From positions 1 to 47,361 of the forward strand of contig JAKALO010000004.1 in the NCBI GenBank assembly GCA_021824125.1: a stretch of 47,361 nucleotides of DNA. The letters are read 5' to 3'. Below, piece by piece: positions 21,236 to 30,195 of this stretch. Positions within the stretch are counted from its first letter, which is position 1. The number at the start of each line of letters is the position of its first letter. A program made the translations under genes and the position numbers. The DNA is from Deltaproteobacteria bacterium (GTDB taxonomy: Bacteria; Desulfobacterota; Deferrimicrobia; Deferrimicrobiales; Deferrimicrobiaceae). The notes below the pieces were generated by a model that made no database searches, had not been told where the DNA came from, and saw nothing but the letters and a program-made list of their open reading frames with translations.

Positions 21236-22516
21236 TTATCGCCGGAACGGTTTCCCTCCGGCAAATTCCGCACAGGCGCCCAGTTCCCCTTCGATCCGCA
21301 GTAGCTGGTTGTATTTGCAGACCCTGTCGGTCCTGCATACGCTCCCGGTCTTGATCTGTCCCATCCCCATCGCCACGGTGAAATCGGAGAGAAACGGGTC
21401 CTCCGTCTCGCCGGAACGGTGAGACACCACGGCCGTCCAGCCGGCATTTCGCGCCATTTCCACCGCGGCCACGGTCTCGCTCACGGTTCCGATCTGGTTC
21501 AGCTTGATCAGGACGGAATTCGCCACCCCTTCCGATATCCCACGGGAAAGCAGCGCCGTGTTGGTCACGAAAATGTCATCCCCGACGATCTGGATCTTTT
21601 CGCCCAACTCCTCCTGCATCGCCTTCCATCCCTTCCAGTCGTTCTCCGCCAGGCCGTCCTCGATGGACACGATCGGAAATTGACGCACCAGGTCGGCGTA
21701 AAACCCCACCATTTTCTCGGATGTTTTTGCAGAGCGATCGGACTTCGCGAAGACATATTTCCCGTCCTCGAAGAATTCGCTTGCGGCAGGGTCCAGCGCG
21801 ATCGCCACATCCCGTCCCGGCTTGAAGCCCGCGGCCGCAATGCCTTCCAGGATTACCTCGATCGCCTCGATGTTGCTTTTGAGCATGGGGGCGAACCCGC
21901 CCTCGTCGCCCACCGCCGTCTGGTATCCCTTTTTTCGTAAAACCCCTTTCAGGGCATGGAAGGTCTCCACACCGAGCCGCAGGCTCTCGGAAAACGTCGG
22001 GGCTCCCAGCGGAACGATCATGAACTCCTGCAGATCGACGTTGTTGTCGGCGTGCTTCCCGCCGTTGATGACGTTCATCATCGGGACCGGAAGGAGATGC
22101 GCCGTGGGACCGCCGAGATACCTGTAAGCGGGCAACCCCAACGAAAGGGCGGCGGCCTTGCAGGCGGCGATGGAAACGCCGAGGATCGCGTTTGCGCCCA
22201 GTTTTTCCTTATGCACGGTGCCGTCCAGTTCGATCATCCTGCGGTCAAGGGCGAGCTGTTCGGCGGCGTCCATCCCGATAACTGCCGGGGCGATGATTTT
22301 CTCGACGTTCTTTACCGCCCGGAGGACGCCTTTCCCTCCGAATCGCTTCTTGTCTCCGTCTCGCAGCTCTACCGCCTCCCTCTCTCCCGTGGAGGCTCCT
22401 GACGGTATGGCCGCTCTCCCGAGGATGCCGTTGTCCAGGACCACGTCCACCTCGATGGTCGGGTTCCCGCGCGAATCGAGGATTTCCCTGGCCGCGACTT
22501 TCCGGATTCCGCTCAT
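21236..22516 (-). CDS. Enolase 2, in the fluoride-riboswitch operon
   Basis: A full-length 426-residue second enolase. Motifs are intact: [42 protein letters not shown] (Pro where enolase 1 has Cys), [29 protein letters not shown] and SHRSGETED. It is the last gene of a minus-strand operon whose leader is a fluoride riboswitch (26337-26387). Its ATG overlaps the micro-ORF stop (ATGA) and has GGAGG upstream. Enolase is inhibited by fluoride with Mg2+ and phosphate, and enolase genes are known crcB-motif targets. It is likely made on fluoride exposure to restore flux. Lower GC and less biased codons than enolase 1 suggest acquisition. Confidence 0.95.
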
Positions 22517-22664: not shown

Positions 22665-23024
22665 TCAGTCCTTCCTCCCTGACGATCCGCGTGTGACCGA
22701 TATGATGGTTGCGCGCAACTCATCTCCCTGTTTGAACTCGGCCCACTTGAAGTCCAGCTCATCGAGCGCTTCCAGCGCCTCCTGGTACCGTTTCAGCCGA
22801 AACAGGGCGTGTGCCAGATGCAGTACGAAACGCGGTTCGTACGGGTTCAGCCATATAGCTCGCCGAAACGAGTTTTCCGCGATCGCGAGCGCGTCTTTGG
22901 CCAGACAGTGAACCCCGATTCGATCGTGGTTGTATCCGAGATAGGGGCACGGCCGGAGCAGCTCTTCGCGCGCCCGGTCCGCGGCCGCGCTCCATTTTCT
23001 CGGTTTCGCGGACGGCGTCTTCAA
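22665..23024 (-). CDS. Small TPR-like protein
   Basis: A 119-residue protein with one clear tetratricopeptide-type helical hairpin: ALAIAENSFRRAIWLNPYEP followed by LHLAHALFRLKRYQEALEAL. TPR proteins act as adaptors, so a partner in the operon is likely. The start is TTG at 23024, overlapping the upstream MutS-like stop (TTGA), consistent with the coupling seen through this operon. The last about 10 residues look non-conserved, and the alternative frame after about 22715 reads as better protein, so a frameshift near the 3' end is possible. Confidence 0.6.
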   Translation of the reverse strand: MKTPSAKPRKWSAAADRAREELLRPCPYLGYNHDRIGVHCLAKDALAIAENSFRRAIWLNPYEPRFVLHLAHALFRLKRYQEALEALDELDFKWAEFKQGDELRATIISVTRGSSGRKD

Positions 23025-24634
23025 TCACCGCCTCTCTGGAGCGTAACCGCTTTCGGCGCACTCGCATGAACCACGGGATCGGTTGTCGCGCACTGATCGC
23101 TCCCCGCACCGAAGATGCTCTCGTACAAGTCTTCCCCGAAACTCGTTTCCAACGGTTCTCCTTCAACGATCCTGAACGTCCGGGTTCCATCGGCGTGCCG
23201 ATCGGCGCGCAGGAACAATACGTTCCCCGTGTTCCGCTCATGGAGTCCTCTTGCCAATTCATAAAGGTGCGTCACGCAGATGACCTTGACGCCGAGGTCG
23301 GACAATGACAACAGGATCTGCCGTGCAATCTCCGACCCTTCCCGCTCGTTAGTCGAAGCAAACGGTTCATTGAACAAGACCATGGAATTCGACGTGAGAT
23401 GATCGACGATAGCGCTCATCCGGCCGATTTCTTCATCGAGTTTCCCGCTCTTCATTGCGGCGTCTTCTTCTCGTTTGAAATGGGTGAAAATCCCGCCGTA
23501 GACACTGGAACGGAAAGACTCAGCCGCGACGAACATCCCGCACTGCATCATCAGTTGCGCCAGACCAACGCTGCGGAGGAATGTCGATTTGCCGCCCTGG
23601 TTGGCGCCCGTGACGATCACGACGTTTTGCTCGTCAGCGTTCGCTGTATTCCCGACCACGCGCCGATCCACGCTCAACGCGAGACACACATCGTACAGTC
23701 CACGAAACGACAGCCGGCGCTTGTCGACTGCCACGGGCAGCGGCAGACAGATGGGCTCCCCCTTCCGGGAAAGCTGCTCGTGCAGATTCACGCAACCAAC
23801 GTAGAAGGCCAGTTCCGACCGCAACTTGTCGAAAAAGCCGCGTATATTATCGGTCGATTGGGCAAGGGTGTTGGCGACGCCGGCGATTCCCCGGTTTTCC
23901 AATTCCCGGAGCGCCCTGGCGCCGCTTTCGTCGCGGGGATGAAGCGAGAAACCAAGAACCGGCGGGCGCTGCGGGAGGAGCCGTTTCAGCCACTCCGGGA
24001 CGAACGATTTCAACCACTCCCATTTTCCCCGCGAAGTCCGGGGCGGGATGTGGAGGGCATAGCGCGTACCCATATTCCCCTTGCCCAATCCGGCGCCGAG
24101 CAACATCCCGCTGCGGAATTTGAGCTGCTTCACGTGATCATGGGCGCGGACGAGGTACTCGTCAGTGAGTTCTTCCTGCAACGTTGCAAAAAAGGCGGTC
24201 CACCCCTCCGAGGAAAACTTGTCGGCATGCAACTCGACAATCTTCCTCAGCTTCTTGATCGTGACAAGAAACATCTCCGATAGATCGATCGACCGCCGGA
24301 GCACCCAGTCGGGATAGCGCATGAGCGTATTGCCGAAAAAAATCTTCTTCTCGTGTTCCGCCGCCTCGGCGGCCACCGCATAAAGGTCTCGAACCACGCC
24401 AGGGTGGTTCAGGCAATCTCGCAGAACGCCTCTCCGGTATCGGATCGTCTCAACGTCATTCTCCGCTCCCGACAAGACGACCCTTCTCGTTACTTCCCGA
24501 ACGAAGTCGTCGCTCCGCGCCATCGCATGGAACAAGGTGTCCAGCTCCAGGTCCTTCACAAGGGCTTCCGCGTTCCAAGGCAACGGGCTTTTCAGGTCCA
24601 TGTCTTGGTCTTGATAGAGCAAGCGCGCCTTCAC
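23021..24634 (-). CDS. MutS-like ATPase B (MutS domain V family)
   Basis: A 537-residue MutS-related ATPase without the N-terminal mismatch-recognition domains. It opens MKARLLYQDQDMD and PWNAEALVKDLELDTLF. The C-terminal ATPase has Walker A GANQGGKS (343-350), a Walker B variant FNEPF (Asn422 in place of Asp) with ASTNEREGSEIA, and the switch His456 in CVTHLYEL. GTG at 24634 is chosen because it overlaps the MutS-like A stop (GTGA) and matches the conserved N-terminus; the 67 residues upstream in this frame look like out-of-frame sequence of its neighbour. Its role in the fluoride response is unknown. Confidence 0.88.
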   Translation of the reverse strand: MKARLLYQDQDMDLKSPLPWNAEALVKDLELDTLFHAMARSDDFVREVTRRVVLSGAENDVETIRYRRGVLRDCLNHPGVVRDLYAVAAEAAEHEKKIFFGNTLMRYPDWVLRRSIDLSEMFLVTIKKLRKIVELHADKFSSEGWTAFFATLQEELTDEYLVRAHDHVKQLKFRSGMLLGAGLGKGNMGTRYALHIPPRTSRGKWEWLKSFVPEWLKRLLPQRPPVLGFSLHPRDESGARALRELENRGIAGVANTLAQSTDNIRGFFDKLRSELAFYVGCVNLHEQLSRKGEPICLPLPVAVDKRRLSFRGLYDVCLALSVDRRVVGNTANADEQNVVIVTGANQGGKSTFLRSVGLAQLMMQCGMFVAAESFRSSVYGGIFTHFKREEDAAMKSGKLDEEIGRMSAIVDHLTSNSMVLFNEPFASTNEREGSEIARQILLSLSDLGVKVICVTHLYELARGLHERNTGNVLFLRADRHADGTRTFRIVEGEPLETSFGEDLYESIFGAGSDQCATTDPVVHASAPKAVTLQRGGD

Positions 24635-26166
24635 GAGCCGATGCGCTCCTTGATCATGGAGTAGGTAAGGCGATGTTTCTCTGCGATGCACATCGCGTAG
24701 GCGAGTCCGTCCGCGGGACGTCTGACGATCTTGAAGGTCCGTAACGCCGGATTCTCGGGGACAACCGTGCTGACCATGCTCACGGTCTTCTCGTTCAAGG
24801 ATGCCAGCTCGTCGATGAATGTCACCCAGACACACAGAAGGTCCAGCGCCATGATCTTGTCCGCGATCTTCCTGCTCAGGGCGACCGCATCGCGCAACGT
24901 CGTGGACATGAAGACCTCGTTCATGACGATGATGCTGTTCGGAGTGGCACGCTCCAGGATCTGGTGGATCCTGACAAGGTCGTCCTGGAGCTTGCCGCGG
25001 AGATCCTTGAGGTTTTCCTCCTTTTCGAAGTGCGTGAAAAGGCGGTCGAAGAGGAAGAGCTGCGCGTGTGTACCGGGAACGGGACAGCCCAGGCTCGCCA
25101 GATAATGGAGCTGGCCGAAGGTGCGGGCGAAGGTCGTCTTGCCGCCCTGGTTAGGACCGGAGACGACAATAATGCGCTCGCCGTCCTTGAGGTGAAAGTC
25201 GTTGCAGACAACATTGCCGCCTTCGGCAATGAGGTTGTTGGCCAGGGCCAGATCGAACCCCTGAACGCTGCGGACCTCCTTGGATGCCCGGATGACGCGC
25301 GGATAACAGAATTTCAAGCCCGCATTACGGACGCGGGCGGTATGCTCCAGGTAGGCGACATAGAATTGAATCTCCCGATCGAATGTGACGATCGTGCGGT
25401 CTTGAAAGTCTTTGTTTTCCGCGCAGTACTGTTCGAGTGCGGAAAAGATATCAGGATGCAACAGGGCCACCAACGCAACGATTCTTTCTTCCACGCTGTT
25501 CATTTGCGGTGAGTCGATAAAGTTGAAAGAGTATTCCTTGGCGGCGCCCTGCCTGAATATTTCGAATGTCGCGGTGACCTCCGAGGCGTAATCGGGTTCG
25601 CCGCCGTAGTGACGGACTTCCACGCGAAGGCCGTTCATGAGCACGGTGTAATGGATCGCGGAGAGGTCGGCTATGAGCTTCTTGGTTCGTTGGAAAAGGG
25701 AGGTGAAGGAATCGGACCCGGCATAGAGGGTCACATATTTCCGGAACGCCAACAGACCACGCGATCTCGGTTCCGCAACGGACAAGTCGTGGGCCAAGCG
25801 GGTCACGACATCGCAGTAGATGTCGGCTGCGTCCAGGAACCAGCGTTCCTTTTGAAGTTTGCAGGACATCTTCCCGGATTGAGCGAGATGTTCGCGCATC
25901 GCGCGCATCCGCTGGGCAAATGCTTTGATGTTGTCGAGAAGGGGGGTAGCATCGAGATCCTGCATGATTTCGTGACGCCAGGTGATGGCTTCGGCATCCT
26001 GCAGGGGCATGTAGAAGAAAGACTTCAGGTCATATTCCGTTTTCCCGGCCGTGATCGCATCGATGATCTGATCGAGATTAAGATCGAAAAAAAAGTCGGG
26101 GGCGGATAGTCCCTCGTTCGGGATGCAGTCGCCTGTGTTCGGAAAGAGGATGCTGCGGAAGGTCAT
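24631..26166 (-). CDS. MutS-like ATPase A (MutS domain V family)
   Basis: First gene after the fluoride riboswitch, 511 residues. It has the MutS clamp/lever-like helical region and a C-terminal ATPase with Walker A SGPNQGGKTTF (336-346), Walker B variant VMNEVF (Asn416 for Asp) and STTLRDAVALSRK. At the switch-His position it has Phe450 (WVTFIDEL), unlike MutS-like B. No mismatch-binding domain is present, so it is not MutS1. The pair probably forms a heterodimer with one altered site. ATG 26166 has AAGGTG 8 nt upstream; the longer frame from 26403 would run through the riboswitch and is rejected. Function unknown. Confidence 0.88.
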   Translation of the reverse strand: MTFRSILFPNTGDCIPNEGLSAPDFFFDLNLDQIIDAITAGKTEYDLKSFFYMPLQDAEAITWRHEIMQDLDATPLLDNIKAFAQRMRAMREHLAQSGKMSCKLQKERWFLDAADIYCDVVTRLAHDLSVAEPRSRGLLAFRKYVTLYAGSDSFTSLFQRTKKLIADLSAIHYTVLMNGLRVEVRHYGGEPDYASEVTATFEIFRQGAAKEYSFNFIDSPQMNSVEERIVALVALLHPDIFSALEQYCAENKDFQDRTIVTFDREIQFYVAYLEHTARVRNAGLKFCYPRVIRASKEVRSVQGFDLALANNLIAEGGNVVCNDFHLKDGERIIVVSGPNQGGKTTFARTFGQLHYLASLGCPVPGTHAQLFLFDRLFTHFEKEENLKDLRGKLQDDLVRIHQILERATPNSIIVMNEVFMSTTLRDAVALSRKIADKIMALDLLCVWVTFIDELASLNEKTVSMVSTVVPENPALRTFKIVRRPADGLAYAMCIAEKHRLTYSMIKERIGS

Positions 26167-26306
26167 CGGACGACACCTTGATATCCGACCGGCTCGGGCA
26201 GACGGCCGACAAGGCGGCACTTCGATTGCGAAAGGCAGGATTCCCGGGAGTCCAGCCGCGATGAAGGTAGGGAGTTGTCTCGCGGATTTCCAGGCGCGAA
26301 CCACAT

Positions 26307-26344
26307 AAAACAAACTCCTGCCGAAGAGATTCTTCAGAGGAGTT
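26307..26344 (-). terminator. Riboswitch-controlled terminator of the MutS-enolase operon
   Basis: On the minus strand AACTCCT (26344-26338) pairs with AGGAGTT (26319-26313), with an inner GAAGA/TCTTC helix, followed by TGTTTT. The left arm is the same ACTCCT that closes the fluoride aptamer. Ligand-bound aptamer and terminator are therefore mutually exclusive: fluoride should turn the operon on. Confidence 0.88.
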
Positions 26345-26387
26345 ATCAGCCTGCAAGCGGCGGTTAAAGGCGAACTCCATCGCCTTG
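26337..26387 (-). promoter_or_regulatory. Fluoride riboswitch 1 (crcB motif), MutS-enolase operon
   Basis: Minus-strand reading shows GGCGATGGAGTTCGCC, then TTTAACCGCC, a short hairpin, and GGCTGATAACTCCT. This is the crcB/fluoride consensus: a GGCG..CGCC helix with loop AUGGAGU, and a distal ACUCC that forms the long-range helix with GGAGU. It lies about 170 nt before the first MutS-like gene. The highly conserved GAUGG and GCUGAU blocks are exact. Confidence 0.93.
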
Positions 26388-26402
26388 CTGTATTCACCGG
26401 CA

Positions 26403-26430
26403 ATTATAACCGTTGGCCTCCGAAATACAA
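26403..26430 (-). promoter_or_regulatory. Promoter of the MutS-enolase operon
   Basis: On the minus strand TTGTAT (26430-26425), a 16-bp spacer and a perfect TATAAT (26408-26403). Transcription would start near 26396, just before the riboswitch. Confidence 0.7.
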
Positions 26431-26486: not shown

Positions 26487-27716
26487 CTATTCGTCCTGAA
26501 GCCCGTTCTCCCTCCGGCGCTCCTGTTGCCGCGTATTCAATTCGTGCGCTTTCGCCCCGGCCGCCTTCTCGGGCAACAGATGTTTCGGCAGAAACGCGAA
26601 ATTCGCAATTATGGTGGGGACGACCGCGCTGGCGATGACCGTGGCGACGAGGAAGGAGTACTGCCCCCGGCTCACGATGCCGTGGGAAAAACCGTACAAG
26701 GCCGAGATTGTGCCGAAGGTGAGCCCCGTGGACATCATCAGGGTGTAATACCACCTCTCGTTACGCTCCCGCTGGAACCGGCCCACGACGGGATACAGAC
26801 CGAAGATCTTCGACGCCACCTTTCCTCCGAGCAGGACGAGGAAGACCAGGGGGGCGGCGAGGATCGCGGGAAGGGATACCAGGGAACCCGCGCGGATGAA
26901 GTAGAAGGGGGTGAGCAGGCCGATCGTCAGGGTGCGGAGCCGACGGACCCAGAACGGATCCTGGGACGCGGCTCCCGCGAGGATCATCCCGGCGAGGTAG
27001 GCGGGTAGAACGGCTTCGCTCCCCGACCAGAGGGCGAGGGCCCCGAGACCGAAGAGCACGAGGAGGACCCATTTCGTACGTATGGCGGCGGTCCGGTGGC
27101 CGTACAGCCGGGTCATCCGGTTGGTCAGGAACGGAAGGGCCGACAAGGCGACGGTGCTCACGGCAAGGAACACCAGGGTTCGGTAAGTAAACGGGGCGAA
27201 GATCAGCCCGAGGGCGATGACGGTTCCGAGGTCGTTGATGAAGCAGGCACCGAGGATTCCCTTTCCGTACCCGGTGCGGTTGAAGCCGGTTTCCAGCATC
27301 ACGGCGTACACCACCGCCATCGAGGTGGTGGAGAGTGCCACGCCCGCCAGGAGGCTCGCGCGAGGGTCCCAGCCGAGCGCGTAATGGGCGAGGAGCGCGC
27401 ATCCAAGGAAGGGGGCAAGGAAGCCGACCGTCCCGATGACGCTCACCTCCTTCCACTTCGTACGGAAAACGGCCGACTCCAGTTCCGCACCGGCGAGAAA
27501 GGTGAGGATCACGGCGCCCAGGGTCGCAAGGAAACGCAGCCACTCCCTGTCTGCGCCGAGGGCGTCCGGGCCGAGATAATGTTCCGCGAGCGCTCCCGCC
27601 GCGATGCCGACGCAAATCTCGATCAAGGCCATCGATATGCGCAGGTGATAGGCAAGGATGCAGGAGAGCACCGCCAGGGCAAGCCAGAAGGCGGCGTGGA
27701 AAAAGATGTCGGTCAT
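26487..27716 (-). CDS. CPA2-type cation/proton antiporter, fluoride-riboswitch controlled
   Basis: A 409-residue integral membrane protein with about 11-13 hydrophobic segments, of the Na+/H+ exchanger (CPA2) fold. Notable segments are LTFLAGAELESAVF, GVALSTTSMAVVYAVMLETG, CFINDLGTVIALGL (acidic residue in a central helix) and TPFYFIRAGSLVSLP. No C-terminal TrkA-N or USP domain is present; it ends in a charged tail. The ATG has GAGGAGG 6-8 nt upstream. Its leader carries fluoride riboswitch 2. Antiporters of this class are known crcB-motif targets, perhaps exporting fluoride-linked ions or adjusting pH, because HF entry acidifies cells. Substrate not visible. Confidence 0.9.
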   Translation of the reverse strand: MTDIFFHAAFWLALAVLSCILAYHLRISMALIEICVGIAAGALAEHYLGPDALGADREWLRFLATLGAVILTFLAGAELESAVFRTKWKEVSVIGTVGFLAPFLGCALLAHYALGWDPRASLLAGVALSTTSMAVVYAVMLETGFNRTGYGKGILGACFINDLGTVIALGLIFAPFTYRTLVFLAVSTVALSALPFLTNRMTRLYGHRTAAIRTKWVLLVLFGLGALALWSGSEAVLPAYLAGMILAGAASQDPFWVRRLRTLTIGLLTPFYFIRAGSLVSLPAILAAPLVFLVLLGGKVASKIFGLYPVVGRFQRERNERWYYTLMMSTGLTFGTISALYGFSHGIVSRGQYSFLVATVIASAVVPTIIANFAFLPKHLLPEKAAGAKAHELNTRQQERRRENGLQDE

Positions 27717-27781: not shown

Positions 27782-27825
27782 CGGATGCCCCGCACGATGA
27801 ACCTACCGCGTACGAGCCTGCGCGG

Positions 27826-27877
27826 TAGGAGTCATCAGCCGGACGTGGGCGATTATGAGGGGGACTCCATCCCCGAA
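27826..27877 (-). promoter_or_regulatory. Fluoride riboswitch 2 (crcB motif), antiporter leader
   Basis: Minus-strand reading: GGGGATGGAGTCCCC, then CTCATAATCGCC, a short stem, and GGCTGATGACTCCT. The GAUGGAGU loop and GCUGAUGACUCCU block match the fluoride aptamer. A 9-bp hairpin (CCTACCGCG 27829-27821 with CGCGGTAGG 27810-27802) starts inside the ACTCCT block, so aptamer folding should compete with it. Confidence 0.92.
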
Positions 27878-27886
27878 AAGCAAGTT

Positions 27887-27916
27887 ATTAGAGCATATCG
27901 TCTCTACATATCGCAA
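27887..27916 (-). promoter_or_regulatory. Promoter of the antiporter leader
   Basis: On the minus strand TTGCGA (27916-27911), 18-bp spacer, TCTAAT (27892-27887), about 10 nt before riboswitch 2. Confidence 0.6.
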
Positions 27917-27959
27917 GGGGGAAAACAGGGGGAAAACAGGGGGAAAACGGGGGGGAACA
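27917..27959. repeat. Four 11-bp tandem repeats between divergent riboswitch promoters
   Basis: Units GGGGGAAAACA at 27917-27927 and 27928-27938, GGGGGAAAAC at 27939-27948 and a degenerate GGGGGGGAACA at 27949-27959. They abut the -35 box of the antiporter promoter and end 20 bp before that of the GTPase promoter. One helical turn per unit is a suitable layout for a bound protein, but no regulator is known. Confidence 0.8.
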
Positions 27960-27979
27960 GGACCACGAGGGGCCGCGTA

Positions 27980-28008
27980 TTGAATCGAACCGCCGGGGAT
28001 GGTATGAT
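27980..28008 (+). promoter_or_regulatory. Promoter of the dynamin-like GTPase leader
   Basis: TTGAAT (27980-27985), 17-bp spacer, TATGAT (28003-28008). Transcription would start near 28015, just before riboswitch 3. Confidence 0.68.
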
Positions 28009-28020
28009 TCGTCCTGCAAT

Positions 28021-28077
28021 AAGGGCGATGGAGTTCGCCTGAAACCGCCTGTCTGCCGGACGGCTGATGACTCCTGC
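28021..28077 (+). promoter_or_regulatory. Fluoride riboswitch 3 (crcB motif), dynamin-like GTPase
   Basis: GGCGATGGAGTTCGCC (28024-28039), TGAAACCGCC, a short stem, and GGCTGATGACTCCT (28062-28075). All conserved blocks of the fluoride aptamer are present, and GGAGT can pair with ACTCC. It resembles riboswitch 1 most closely, suggesting duplication. The 3' end overlaps a terminator stem. Confidence 0.94.
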
Positions 28078-28106
28078 GACTTTCACTGGTCGCGGGAGTT
28101 TTTTTT
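28071..28106 (+). terminator. Riboswitch-controlled terminator before the GTPase
   Basis: CTCCTGCGAC (28071-28080) pairs with GTCGCGGGAG (28089-28098, one wobble), followed by eight T. The left arm contains the CTCCT of the aptamer, so fluoride binding should prevent termination. Confidence 0.92.
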
Positions 28107-28119
28107 CGATGGAGATTCG

Positions 28120-29832
28120 GTGAGCCTGGATGACCACGAAATGGGAACTTCGAACCCGGGGACGGATGTCGCGGATTCCCGGCAGGCGGTCATGCTGCGC
28201 CTCGAACGGATCTGCCGGGAGTTCAACGTGGATTCCCTTCTCCCCCAGATCGGGGCCGGGGAGGAGGTCCTGCGGGAGCACGGGGTGGTGGACGTGGCCG
28301 TCCTCGGCCAGTTCAAGGCTGGCAAGAGCTCCTTCCTGAACGGCCTCATCGGGAGGGACGTGCTGCCCGTCAACGTACTTCCTGCCACCGCCGTGATCAC
28401 GCGGATCGGGCATGGCCCCGCGGATCGGGCTCTCGCGCGGCACATGGATGGACGCGCCCGGGAGATACCCCTGGAGGATCTGCCCGAATTCGTGACGGAG
28501 CAGCGGAACCCGGGGAACGCGAAGCAAGTGTCGATCGTGGACGTCGAGCTTCCGGTCCTCGCGGACTTCCGGGGGATGCGTTTCGTGGACACGCCGGGCC
28601 TGGGGAGCGTTTTCGCCCACAACACGAAGGTCTCAATGGAATGGCTCCCCCGCGTCGGGGGGGCGCTCGTCGCCGTAAGCGTCAACCACCCCCTTTCCGA
28701 ACAGGACCTGAACCTGCTCCTGGAGGTGTTCCGGCACACTCCCGAGACGGCGATCCTGCTCACGAAGGCCGATCTCGTGACCGGGGAACAGCTCGAAGCG
28801 GTCGTGGAGTTCACGAAGCGGCAGGTGATCCGGCATACGGGGAAGGATGTGGCGATCCTTCCGTTCTCAAACCGCCCCGGCTTCGATGCATTGCGGAACG
28901 CCGTCCGGGAACACCTTTTCCGACGGATCGTCCACCGGCGCGAGGAGACGTTCGAGGAGATCGTCGACCACAAGATACGATTTCTCGTCGGCGAATGCCG
29001 GCAATACCTGGCGCTGGCGCACCGTGTCGCCGAAACCGCGGGTAAGGCCCGGGAGGAGCTTCGGGAGGTCCTGGAGCGCGAGGACCGGGACCTGGGCGCC
29101 GTGAAGAGCGAAATCGGTCTGCAGATCCGCGATATCGAATCCCGCGTACGGACGGCCGCCGGGGAACGGTTCCATTCCCACCACCGGGAAATCCTGGACC
29201 GGATGGTTAGCAGGCTGGGGGAGGCAGGCAAGGAGTGGACAGGAAACCTGGCGAAGGTCACCGGGGCGTTCCGTGAATGGCTGCTCGAAGCCCTCTCGGA
29301 AGAACTCGCCGAGGTCTCGTTCCACGGGGAAACCCACCTTGCGGGATTTCTCGTGACGTCCCAGTCGAGCTTCCAGCGAACGGTCCGGGCTTTCCAGGAC
29401 CGGCTTGCCAAGGAGATCGAACGCGCCCTGGGGATCCCGTTCACCGGGGCGCGGTTCCACGCGGAGATCGAGGAGCCGGCGCGTCCCGACGTCCGGGTTG
29501 GGAAGACATTCGACTCCCAGGTCGACCTGCTATGGTTCCTCGTACCGATGAGCGTCTTCCGCTCACTCGTCTTGCGCCACTTCCGGAAACAGGTCGTCTG
29601 GGAAGTCGAAAAGAACCTTTCCCGCCTGGCCTCCCAATGGGCCGATGCCGTGAACCGGTCGATCGGCGGCCTGGCGCGCCAGTCCCTGGAGTTCATGCGG
29701 GGCGAGGCCGCCACGATCCGAAGCCTCGTCGAGAACGCCGAAGACCGGCGGGACGACATCCGGAAGGCTATCGCGGAGCTTGACCACCTGGAATCATCAC
29801 TGTCGGGGTCTCCGCGGGAGGGGGCGTGTTGA
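28120..29832 (+). CDS. Dynamin-like large GTPase, fluoride-riboswitch controlled
   Basis: A 570-residue bacterial dynamin-like protein. The GTPase domain has G1 GQFKAGKSS (63-71), a G2 Thr in PATAVITRI (88-96), G3 DTPG (157-160) and G4 TKAD (215-218). A long helical stalk follows (about 265-460), then a hydrophobic stretch LLWFLVPMSVF (about 470-480) that may act as the membrane-inserting paddle, and a helical C-terminus. Such proteins bind and remodel membranes. The start is GTG 28120 with GGAG 5 nt upstream, 14 nt after the riboswitch terminator. It is the only gene of this transcript. A role in membrane repair under fluoride stress is my inference; I know of no described case. Confidence 0.88.
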   Translation: MSLDDHEMGTSNPGTDVADSRQAVMLRLERICREFNVDSLLPQIGAGEEVLREHGVVDVAVLGQFKAGKSSFLNGLIGRDVLPVNVLPATAVITRIGHGPADRALARHMDGRAREIPLEDLPEFVTEQRNPGNAKQVSIVDVELPVLADFRGMRFVDTPGLGSVFAHNTKVSMEWLPRVGGALVAVSVNHPLSEQDLNLLLEVFRHTPETAILLTKADLVTGEQLEAVVEFTKRQVIRHTGKDVAILPFSNRPGFDALRNAVREHLFRRIVHRREETFEEIVDHKIRFLVGECRQYLALAHRVAETAGKAREELREVLEREDRDLGAVKSEIGLQIRDIESRVRTAAGERFHSHHREILDRMVSRLGEAGKEWTGNLAKVTGAFREWLLEALSEELAEVSFHGETHLAGFLVTSQSSFQRTVRAFQDRLAKEIERALGIPFTGARFHAEIEEPARPDVRVGKTFDSQVDLLWFLVPMSVFRSLVLRHFRKQVVWEVEKNLSRLASQWADAVNRSIGGLARQSLEFMRGEAATIRSLVENAEDRRDDIRKAIAELDHLESSLSGSPREGAC

Positions 29833-29919: not shown

Positions 29920-30195
29920 TTACTTCTTCGCCGGCGCTGTCGCGGGCGGTGCCGCCGGGGCTGCGGGCTTGGCCTCTTCGGCCTTCTTCTCTTCGGCTTT
30001 CTTCGGCGCCTTCTTCTTCTTCGCGGCCTTCTTCTTCGCCGGCTTCGCCGCCTCGCCTTCCTTCTTCTCCGCCGCAGGAGCCGCCGCCTTCGCGGGCTCC
30101 GCAGGTGCTGCCGCCTTGGGCGCATCCGCCGCCACTGCCGCCAGCGACGTCAGCGCGAACGCCACGGCCACCAGGAACGAAAGGAACTTCTTCAT
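29920..30195 (-). CDS. Small exported Lys/Ala/Pro-rich protein
   Basis: A 91-residue protein with a clear Sec signal peptide (MKKFLSFLVAVAFALTSLAAVAA, cut after AVA-A) and a mature part made almost only of Ala, Lys, Pro and Glu (PAKKKAAKKKKAPKKAEEKK). The composition resembles histone H1-like tails, but the signal peptide places it in the periplasm or outside. ATG 30195 is chosen for the signal peptide and the GGGAGG site; a longer frame upstream is not supported. It has its own terminator. Function unknown; a polyanion- or envelope-binding role is a guess. Confidence 0.75.
   Translation of the reverse strand: MKKFLSFLVAVAFALTSLAAVAADAPKAAAPAEPAKAAAPAAEKKEGEAAKPAKKKAAKKKKAPKKAEEKKAEEAKPAAPAAPPATAPAKK

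Follow-up and report, generated by a model that had tools for sequence, protein, structure and literature searches.

Bacterial dynamin-like GTPases that appear to be dedicated to the fluoride riboswitch regulon

A gene for a dynamin-like GTPase (DLP), a bacterial relative of the dynamins that bend and sever cell membranes, in the genome of a deltaproteobacterium (GenBank GCA_021824125.1, contig JAKALO010000004.1) is almost certainly controlled by fluoride via a transcriptional ON riboswitch, as judged from the sequence of its leader, and the pairing of such a gene with a fluoride riboswitch is, on genome comparison, conserved in about ten bacterial phyla. The window, i.e., the whole stretch of DNA that was analysed, has a length of 47,361 nucleotides, and all the positions given below are those of the window.

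Riboswitch Leader and Transcription Unit

The leader of the DLP gene is preceded on the plus strand by a sigma-70-like promoter (27980-28008, TTGAAT-17-TATGAT, with TG before the second hexamer), which was found by a consensus scan with 9 of 12 matches and is suggestive only, one such site having been found versus 0.3 expected in shuffles. The match to the fluoride riboswitch aptamer (Rfam RF01734; 28015-28083, plus strand) begins 7 nt past the end of this site at 28008, has a score of 55.1 bits (E 1.1e-12) versus the gathering score of 34, and encloses the segment 28021-28077, where the aptamer had been placed by the first-pass annotation. The covariance model built to find further aptamers used the published pairs; a simple regular expression misses about half of the cases and was not used. 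The stem P1 is formed by 28024-28027 and 28036-28039, and the pseudoknot by 28030-28034 with 28070-28074. Among 32 aptamers of the source and related genomes, compensatory changes were found in two pairs of P1, two pairs of the pseudoknot and one pair of P3, with 98.9% of the cells paired versus 34-57% in slid controls.

The intrinsic terminator recovered by the terminator scan (28069-28106, plus strand; -19.9 kcal/mol, z = -6.5, T8 run) folds where a hairpin had been called before (28071-28106), with the stem arms 28071-28081 and 28088-28098. The 3' strand of the pseudoknot shares nucleotides with the 5' arm of this hairpin, so that the ligand-bound aptamer and the terminator would be mutually exclusive, which gives the switch a fluoride-ON logic. 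A clear terminator was present in 24 of the 55 DLP-adjacent switches, the leader described here included, versus none in the coding control, and the others may act at the level of translation or form weaker hairpins. In its aptamer, pseudoknot covariation, overlapping terminator and ON logic, the element is the same as the known fluoride (crcB) riboswitch RF01734, but it differs by its target, since the DLP stands outside the published target lists (PMC11139923, PMC2864571).

The DLP gene (28120-29832, plus strand) starts with GTG, has an alternative ATG start at 28141, and encodes a protein of 570 aa with a Pfam Dynamin_N match (PF00350) of 71 bits at a cut-off of 27, which bears out the earlier reading of a GTG-started dynamin-like GTPase at 28120. 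It is the only strong Dynamin_N match of the source genome, in which a second one was not found. The next gene (about 29920-30195) is convergent and has its own terminator, and thus the DLP gene is the only one of its unit. Therefore, the initial description of the DLP as the sole gene behind its riboswitch holds for the transcript but not in the sense of isolation, since the gene sits in a fluoride cluster with three riboswitches. The convergent minus-strand gene encodes a small Lys/Ala/Pro-rich, secreted-looking protein and is followed by a strong terminator at 29880-29856.

Fluoride Gene Cluster of the Source Genome

Two more fluoride riboswitches, both on the minus strand, are located within 1.7 kb of the DLP unit. 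The second riboswitch (27819-27883, minus strand; RF01734, 47.2 bits) is divergent from that of the DLP and lies upstream of a CPA2-type cation/proton antiporter (Na_H_Exchanger; 26487-27716, minus strand; Pfam PF00999, 116 bits; TIGR00932, 98.6 bits), with short tandem GGGGGAAAAC repeats occupying the region 27910-27960 between the two divergent elements. The third (26330-26393, minus strand; RF01734, 51.1 bits) lies upstream of a unit of two consecutive ATPases having the MutS domain V only (23021-26403, minus strand; PF00488 only, with KamC-like second matches), whose true starts are inside the ORFs 24631-26403 and 23021-24835, and of the enolase (21236-22516, minus strand; Pfam Enolase_C, 415 bits; TIGR01060), which ends this same-strand run and is a classical fluoride target.

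These three are the only fluoride riboswitches found in the source genome (2.6 Mb, 98.6% complete), and its fluoride regulon seems to consist of the DLP, the CPA2 antiporter, the MutS-like pair and the enolase. No CrcB/Fluc was found in this genome at its 98.6% completeness, and the one CLC protein encoded elsewhere in it carries the filter GSGGSAGKEGP, which we take to be that of the ordinary chloride type, and stands outside riboswitch control. The absence of CrcB and of a riboswitch-controlled CLC exporter raises the question of whether the CPA2 protein handles fluoride itself. As for the fluoride-controlled "mutS" genes, their products have no mismatch-recognition domains and are nearly as close to the aminomutase reactivase KamC as to MutS2; for the domain-V-only type, it may be a mistake to label crcB-associated mutS genes as DNA-repair genes.

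Protein Structure and Relation to Known Dynamins

According to the AlphaFold model (mean pLDDT 91.3, pTM 0.85), the protein is predicted to be a complete dynamin-superfamily fold with a GTPase head, neck and long helical trunk (helices 274-305, 308-352, 377-437 and 477-538), and with the GTPase motifs intact. The conservation of the motifs was read from an alignment of 81 homologues, which was also the input for the model: the G1/P-loop GQFKAGKS (residues 63-70; 28306-28329, plus strand) and the G4 motif TKAD (residues 215-218; 28762-28773, plus strand) are nearly invariant, and the G3 motif DTPG (residues 157-160; 28588-28599, plus strand) is invariant. Between G2 and G3 there is the family signature NPxN (residues 130-133; 28507-28518, plus strand), present in 95 of the 102 family members but missing in three riboswitch-free DLPs of the phylum as well as in those parts of BDLP, IniA and Cj-DLP2 that could be aligned. 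At the trunk end, where the model turns from the long helix 377-437 into the long helix 477-538, lies the motif FDxxxDLLWFLIPMxxFR (residues 464-481; 29509-29562, plus strand), recognised by its conservation and hydrophobicity profile. The tip is thus one short conserved hydrophobic stretch with no long paddle, and is a candidate membrane-contact element on the evidence of the model.

The structure search with the model gave Nostoc BDLP (E 1.2e-18) and mycobacterial IniA (E 1.4e-18) as the best folds, the TM-scores to both being low because the hinges differ, while the search of viral structures returned only giant-virus dynamins. Among the proteins of solved structure, the Campylobacter DLP pair, IniA and BDLP were the best relatives in the sequence profile search. 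The IniA protein (PDB 6j72/6j73) is likewise a single-chain DLP with head, neck and trunk that matches the fold over its whole length, and both are stress-induced, the DLP by riboswitch inference; however, the two share only 17% identity, IniA has no NPxN motif, its lipid loop is basic and flexible in contrast to the conserved hydrophobic FDxxxDLLWFLIPM tip, and its inducers are cell-wall drugs and not fluoride. Nostoc BDLP (PDB 2j68/2j69) has a similar order of head and trunk, but its identity is 15%, its paddle is larger, and NPxN is missing there as well. The DLP1/DLP2 of Campylobacter jejuni (PDB 5owv) provided the best sequence match to a solved structure (E 2.4e-24, spanning the GTPase domain), but are a heterotypic, co-encoded pair, whereas the gene described here is single. 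Bacillus subtilis DynA, a bacterial DLP to which membrane surveillance is ascribed (PMC8844932), consists of two modules fused in tandem, with a total of about 1190 aa, unlike the single module found here.

Identity with several named dynamins was considered and rejected: with DynA (NCBIfam NF052648), for which the single module scored 38.3 bits versus a cut-off of 1600; with CrfC (NF007368), at 24 bits versus 1146; and with LeoA (PADLOC PDLC03839), whose match of 31.5 bits covers only 39 residues around the P-loop and not the profile length.

Recurrence of the Pairing among Bacterial Genomes

Among 59 relatives, strong DLP homologues were found together with fluoride riboswitches in the same genomes, mostly adjoining them. 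In an even draw of 247 genomes of the phylum, the family profile found 42 DLP-family genes, 37 of which have a same-strand fluoride riboswitch within 4 kb upstream, and 33 of which have it within 400 nt, with a chance expectation of about 5e-5 per gene within 500 nt by a simple density estimate; one of the five unlinked genes starts at a contig edge. A fluoride riboswitch was present in 40 of the 41 genomes having a DLP versus 52 of the 206 that lack one (Fisher p 2.6e-19, with no correction for relatedness). Almost all the genomes contain Dynamin_N matches, most of which are weak and come from other GTPases, and no riboswitch was found near six other full-length DLPs of the phylum sample (genomes G029, G031, G033, G046, G052 and G053 of our labelling), which rules out a riboswitch link generic to all DLPs.

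A scan of 84,980 GTDB species genomes provided the best 80 relatives of the DLP, and a same-strand riboswitch lies within 2.5 kb upstream in 69 of them, and within 400 nt in 54. Two weak riboswitch-like matches unconfirmed by Rfam (loci L076, 3526, and L126, 772) were removed from this count, which had been 71. The 11 relatives (about 14%) with no upstream riboswitch include at least two at contig ends. The riboswitch-linked loci, nearly all of them metagenome-assembled, include, by the titles of their records, members of Deltaproteobacteria/Thermodesulfobacteriota, Methylomirabilota, Planctomycetota, Sumerlaeota, Acidobacteriota, Verrucomicrobiota, Actinomycetota, Goldiibacteriota, Bacillota and Chlorobiota. 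In a quick protein tree, whose deep joins are long branches and unsure, the family splits into two deep clades; most members of either clade are riboswitch-linked, and the few that are not are dispersed over the tree. The association that had been proposed from a single locus, and was to be sought in other genomes, thus recurs massively.

Membership of the DLP in the fluoride response is further supported by comparative genomics, as the DLP shares operons with genes of established fluoride function. In 18 of the 80 loci, it has a CrcB, DUF190, antiporter or enolase gene as a contiguous neighbour on the same strand, and the number is 20 if the MutS-like neighbours are counted. The clearest case is the locus L129 (172-4629) of a Hungateiclostridiaceae metagenome-assembled genome, with a riboswitch followed by CrcB, CrcB, DUF190, DLP and antiporter in one run, which is a full fluoride operon containing the dynamin. 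Many riboswitch-DLP units include no other recognisable fluoride gene, and for this reason the partners yield no direct clue to the mechanism.

Some further features of these neighbourhoods were recorded. DUF190 is repeatedly found next to the DLP and CrcB genes of fluoride loci (L065, 2535-3272, L066, L110, L120, L126 and L129), and in the vicinity of riboswitch-linked DLP genes the same holds for small AAA_16-type ATPases and for an AAA/DLP neighbourhood (L085/L107, L133, L120 and similar loci). The locus L032 (1318-3096) of genome G003 is a second DLP, whose C-terminal region contains cysteine (CPICGEV), and is situated in a cluster of four fluoride riboswitches on one contig.

Proposed Role and Alternative Explanations

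The explanation that we favour, and regard as reasonably likely as a whole, is that of a dedicated fluoride-induced DLP, which acts on membranes and guards the barrier. According to this scheme, HF would enter the cell and dissociate, and F- together with Mg2+ would fold the aptamer, which would disrupt the terminator and allow the DLP to be made; the protein would attach to the cytoplasmic membrane from the inside through the hydrophobic tip and then oligomerise, and its GTP hydrolysis would tether, reseal or remodel the membrane, which would be kept tight to protons and ions, or be cleared of its damaged parts. Meanwhile, the antiporters, exporters and extra enolase would handle the acid, the fluoride and the metabolic block, respectively. 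The first-pass suggestion that the protein may protect or repair membranes as HF crosses them agrees with the DLP fold and the conserved tip. A point against the scheme is that HF is not known to rupture membranes. The membrane role is suggested because HF collapses the proton-motive force and pH, because antiporters are co-regulated, and because membranes are the site of action of related DLPs that are induced by stress: the proton-motive force falls when HF is taken up, and Na+/H+ antiporters are common targets of fluoride riboswitches (PMC11139923); IniA binds and fissions membranes via its trunk-end loop (PMC6715688); and surveillance of the membrane is performed by DynA, as noted above. 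By the model and by analogy, action on membranes is probable, and the specific purpose, the protection of the barrier or the proton-motive force, is put forward more tentatively, as a nearly even call.

Alternatively, the DLP might drive envelope shedding or vesiculation, by which fluoride-damaged or fluoride-mineral-loaded membrane would be exported instead of being sealed. The fission mediated by IniA (PMC6715688), the reported link of LeoA to vesicle release (PMC4159319), and the weak LeoA-like PADLOC match of 31.5 bits are consistent with such a function, but the family is found in diderm phyla as well as in Bacillota and Actinomycetota, so that an outer membrane is not required, and we consider this version unlikely. 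It is improbable, too, that the DLP works on cytosolic partners, as a GTP-driven chaperone or reactivase of fluoride-inhibited enzymes beside the enolase and the MutS-like ATPases. Enolase is indeed a frequent operon neighbour (13 same-strand loci among the best 80), and the MutS-like proteins resemble the reactivase KamC; however, the DLP is alone in many units, its fold and tip are of the type of membrane-acting DLPs, and the enolase neighbours are otherwise explained, enolase being a fluoride target.

The ion might also act on the DLP protein itself, a line already hinted at for aluminium fluoride in the first-pass annotation, as GDP with AlF4- or MgF3- mimics the transition state and would lock the dimerised assembly, for only as long as fluoride is there, as a fluoride-gated membrane coat or sink. 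It is established biochemistry that metal fluorides trap dynamin-type GTPases, the GTPase motifs are intact, and the gene would be expressed, by riboswitch inference, when fluoride is present; but many GTPases are trapped by fluoride in this way, no role is known for the NPxN motif, and none of the sequence features tested speaks in favour, which makes the idea doubtful in a high degree. Equally doubtful is the two-level gating that would follow the same line, in which one ion would both induce the mRNA and, as GDP-metal-fluoride, drive or lock the assembly on the membrane. Finally, an accidental adjacency, in which the DLP would merely be near a riboswitch that serves some other gene, such as the antiporter, has a negligible chance even though three riboswitches crowd a 2-kb region, since the plus-strand switch can drive the DLP only and the pairing recurs in the phylum sample and in GTDB loci of about ten phyla and two protein clades, by which this explanation was ruled out.

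Implications for Fluoride Defence and Bacterial Dynamins

The targets named in the report of the crcB motif were mutS, K+/Cl- transport and formate hydrogenlyase (PMC2864571), and the list in a 2024 review, in which GTPases and dynamins do not figure, includes exporters, Na+/H+ antiporters, pyrophosphatase, HAD, enolase and formate hydrogenlyase (PMC11139923). Against these lists, a family of bacterial dynamins that appears, on comparison of the sequences, to be dedicated to the regulon of an ion-specific riboswitch would be new. A literature search for the fluoride riboswitch or crcB combined with dynamin returned nothing relevant, an unremarked entry being possible in the supplements of Baker et al. 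2012, reportedly the original fluoride riboswitch paper, or of Stockbridge et al. 2012.

The known fluoride defences in the cited sources are export, pH control and the replacement of inhibited enzymes, and a conserved membrane-remodelling GTPase would add to them an apparently undescribed arm. The share of the family in the regulon is large, as more than a quarter of the fluoride riboswitches detected in the phylum sample (37 of 134, 28%) are placed to control a DLP-family gene. Bacterial dynamins are mostly without a defined physiological trigger, and here the trigger would be one ion, for which the RNA sensor is known, so that the function of a bacterial dynamin would become directly testable with NaF. 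Remodelling of the membrane thus seems to have been overlooked as an arm of the bacterial defence against fluoride.
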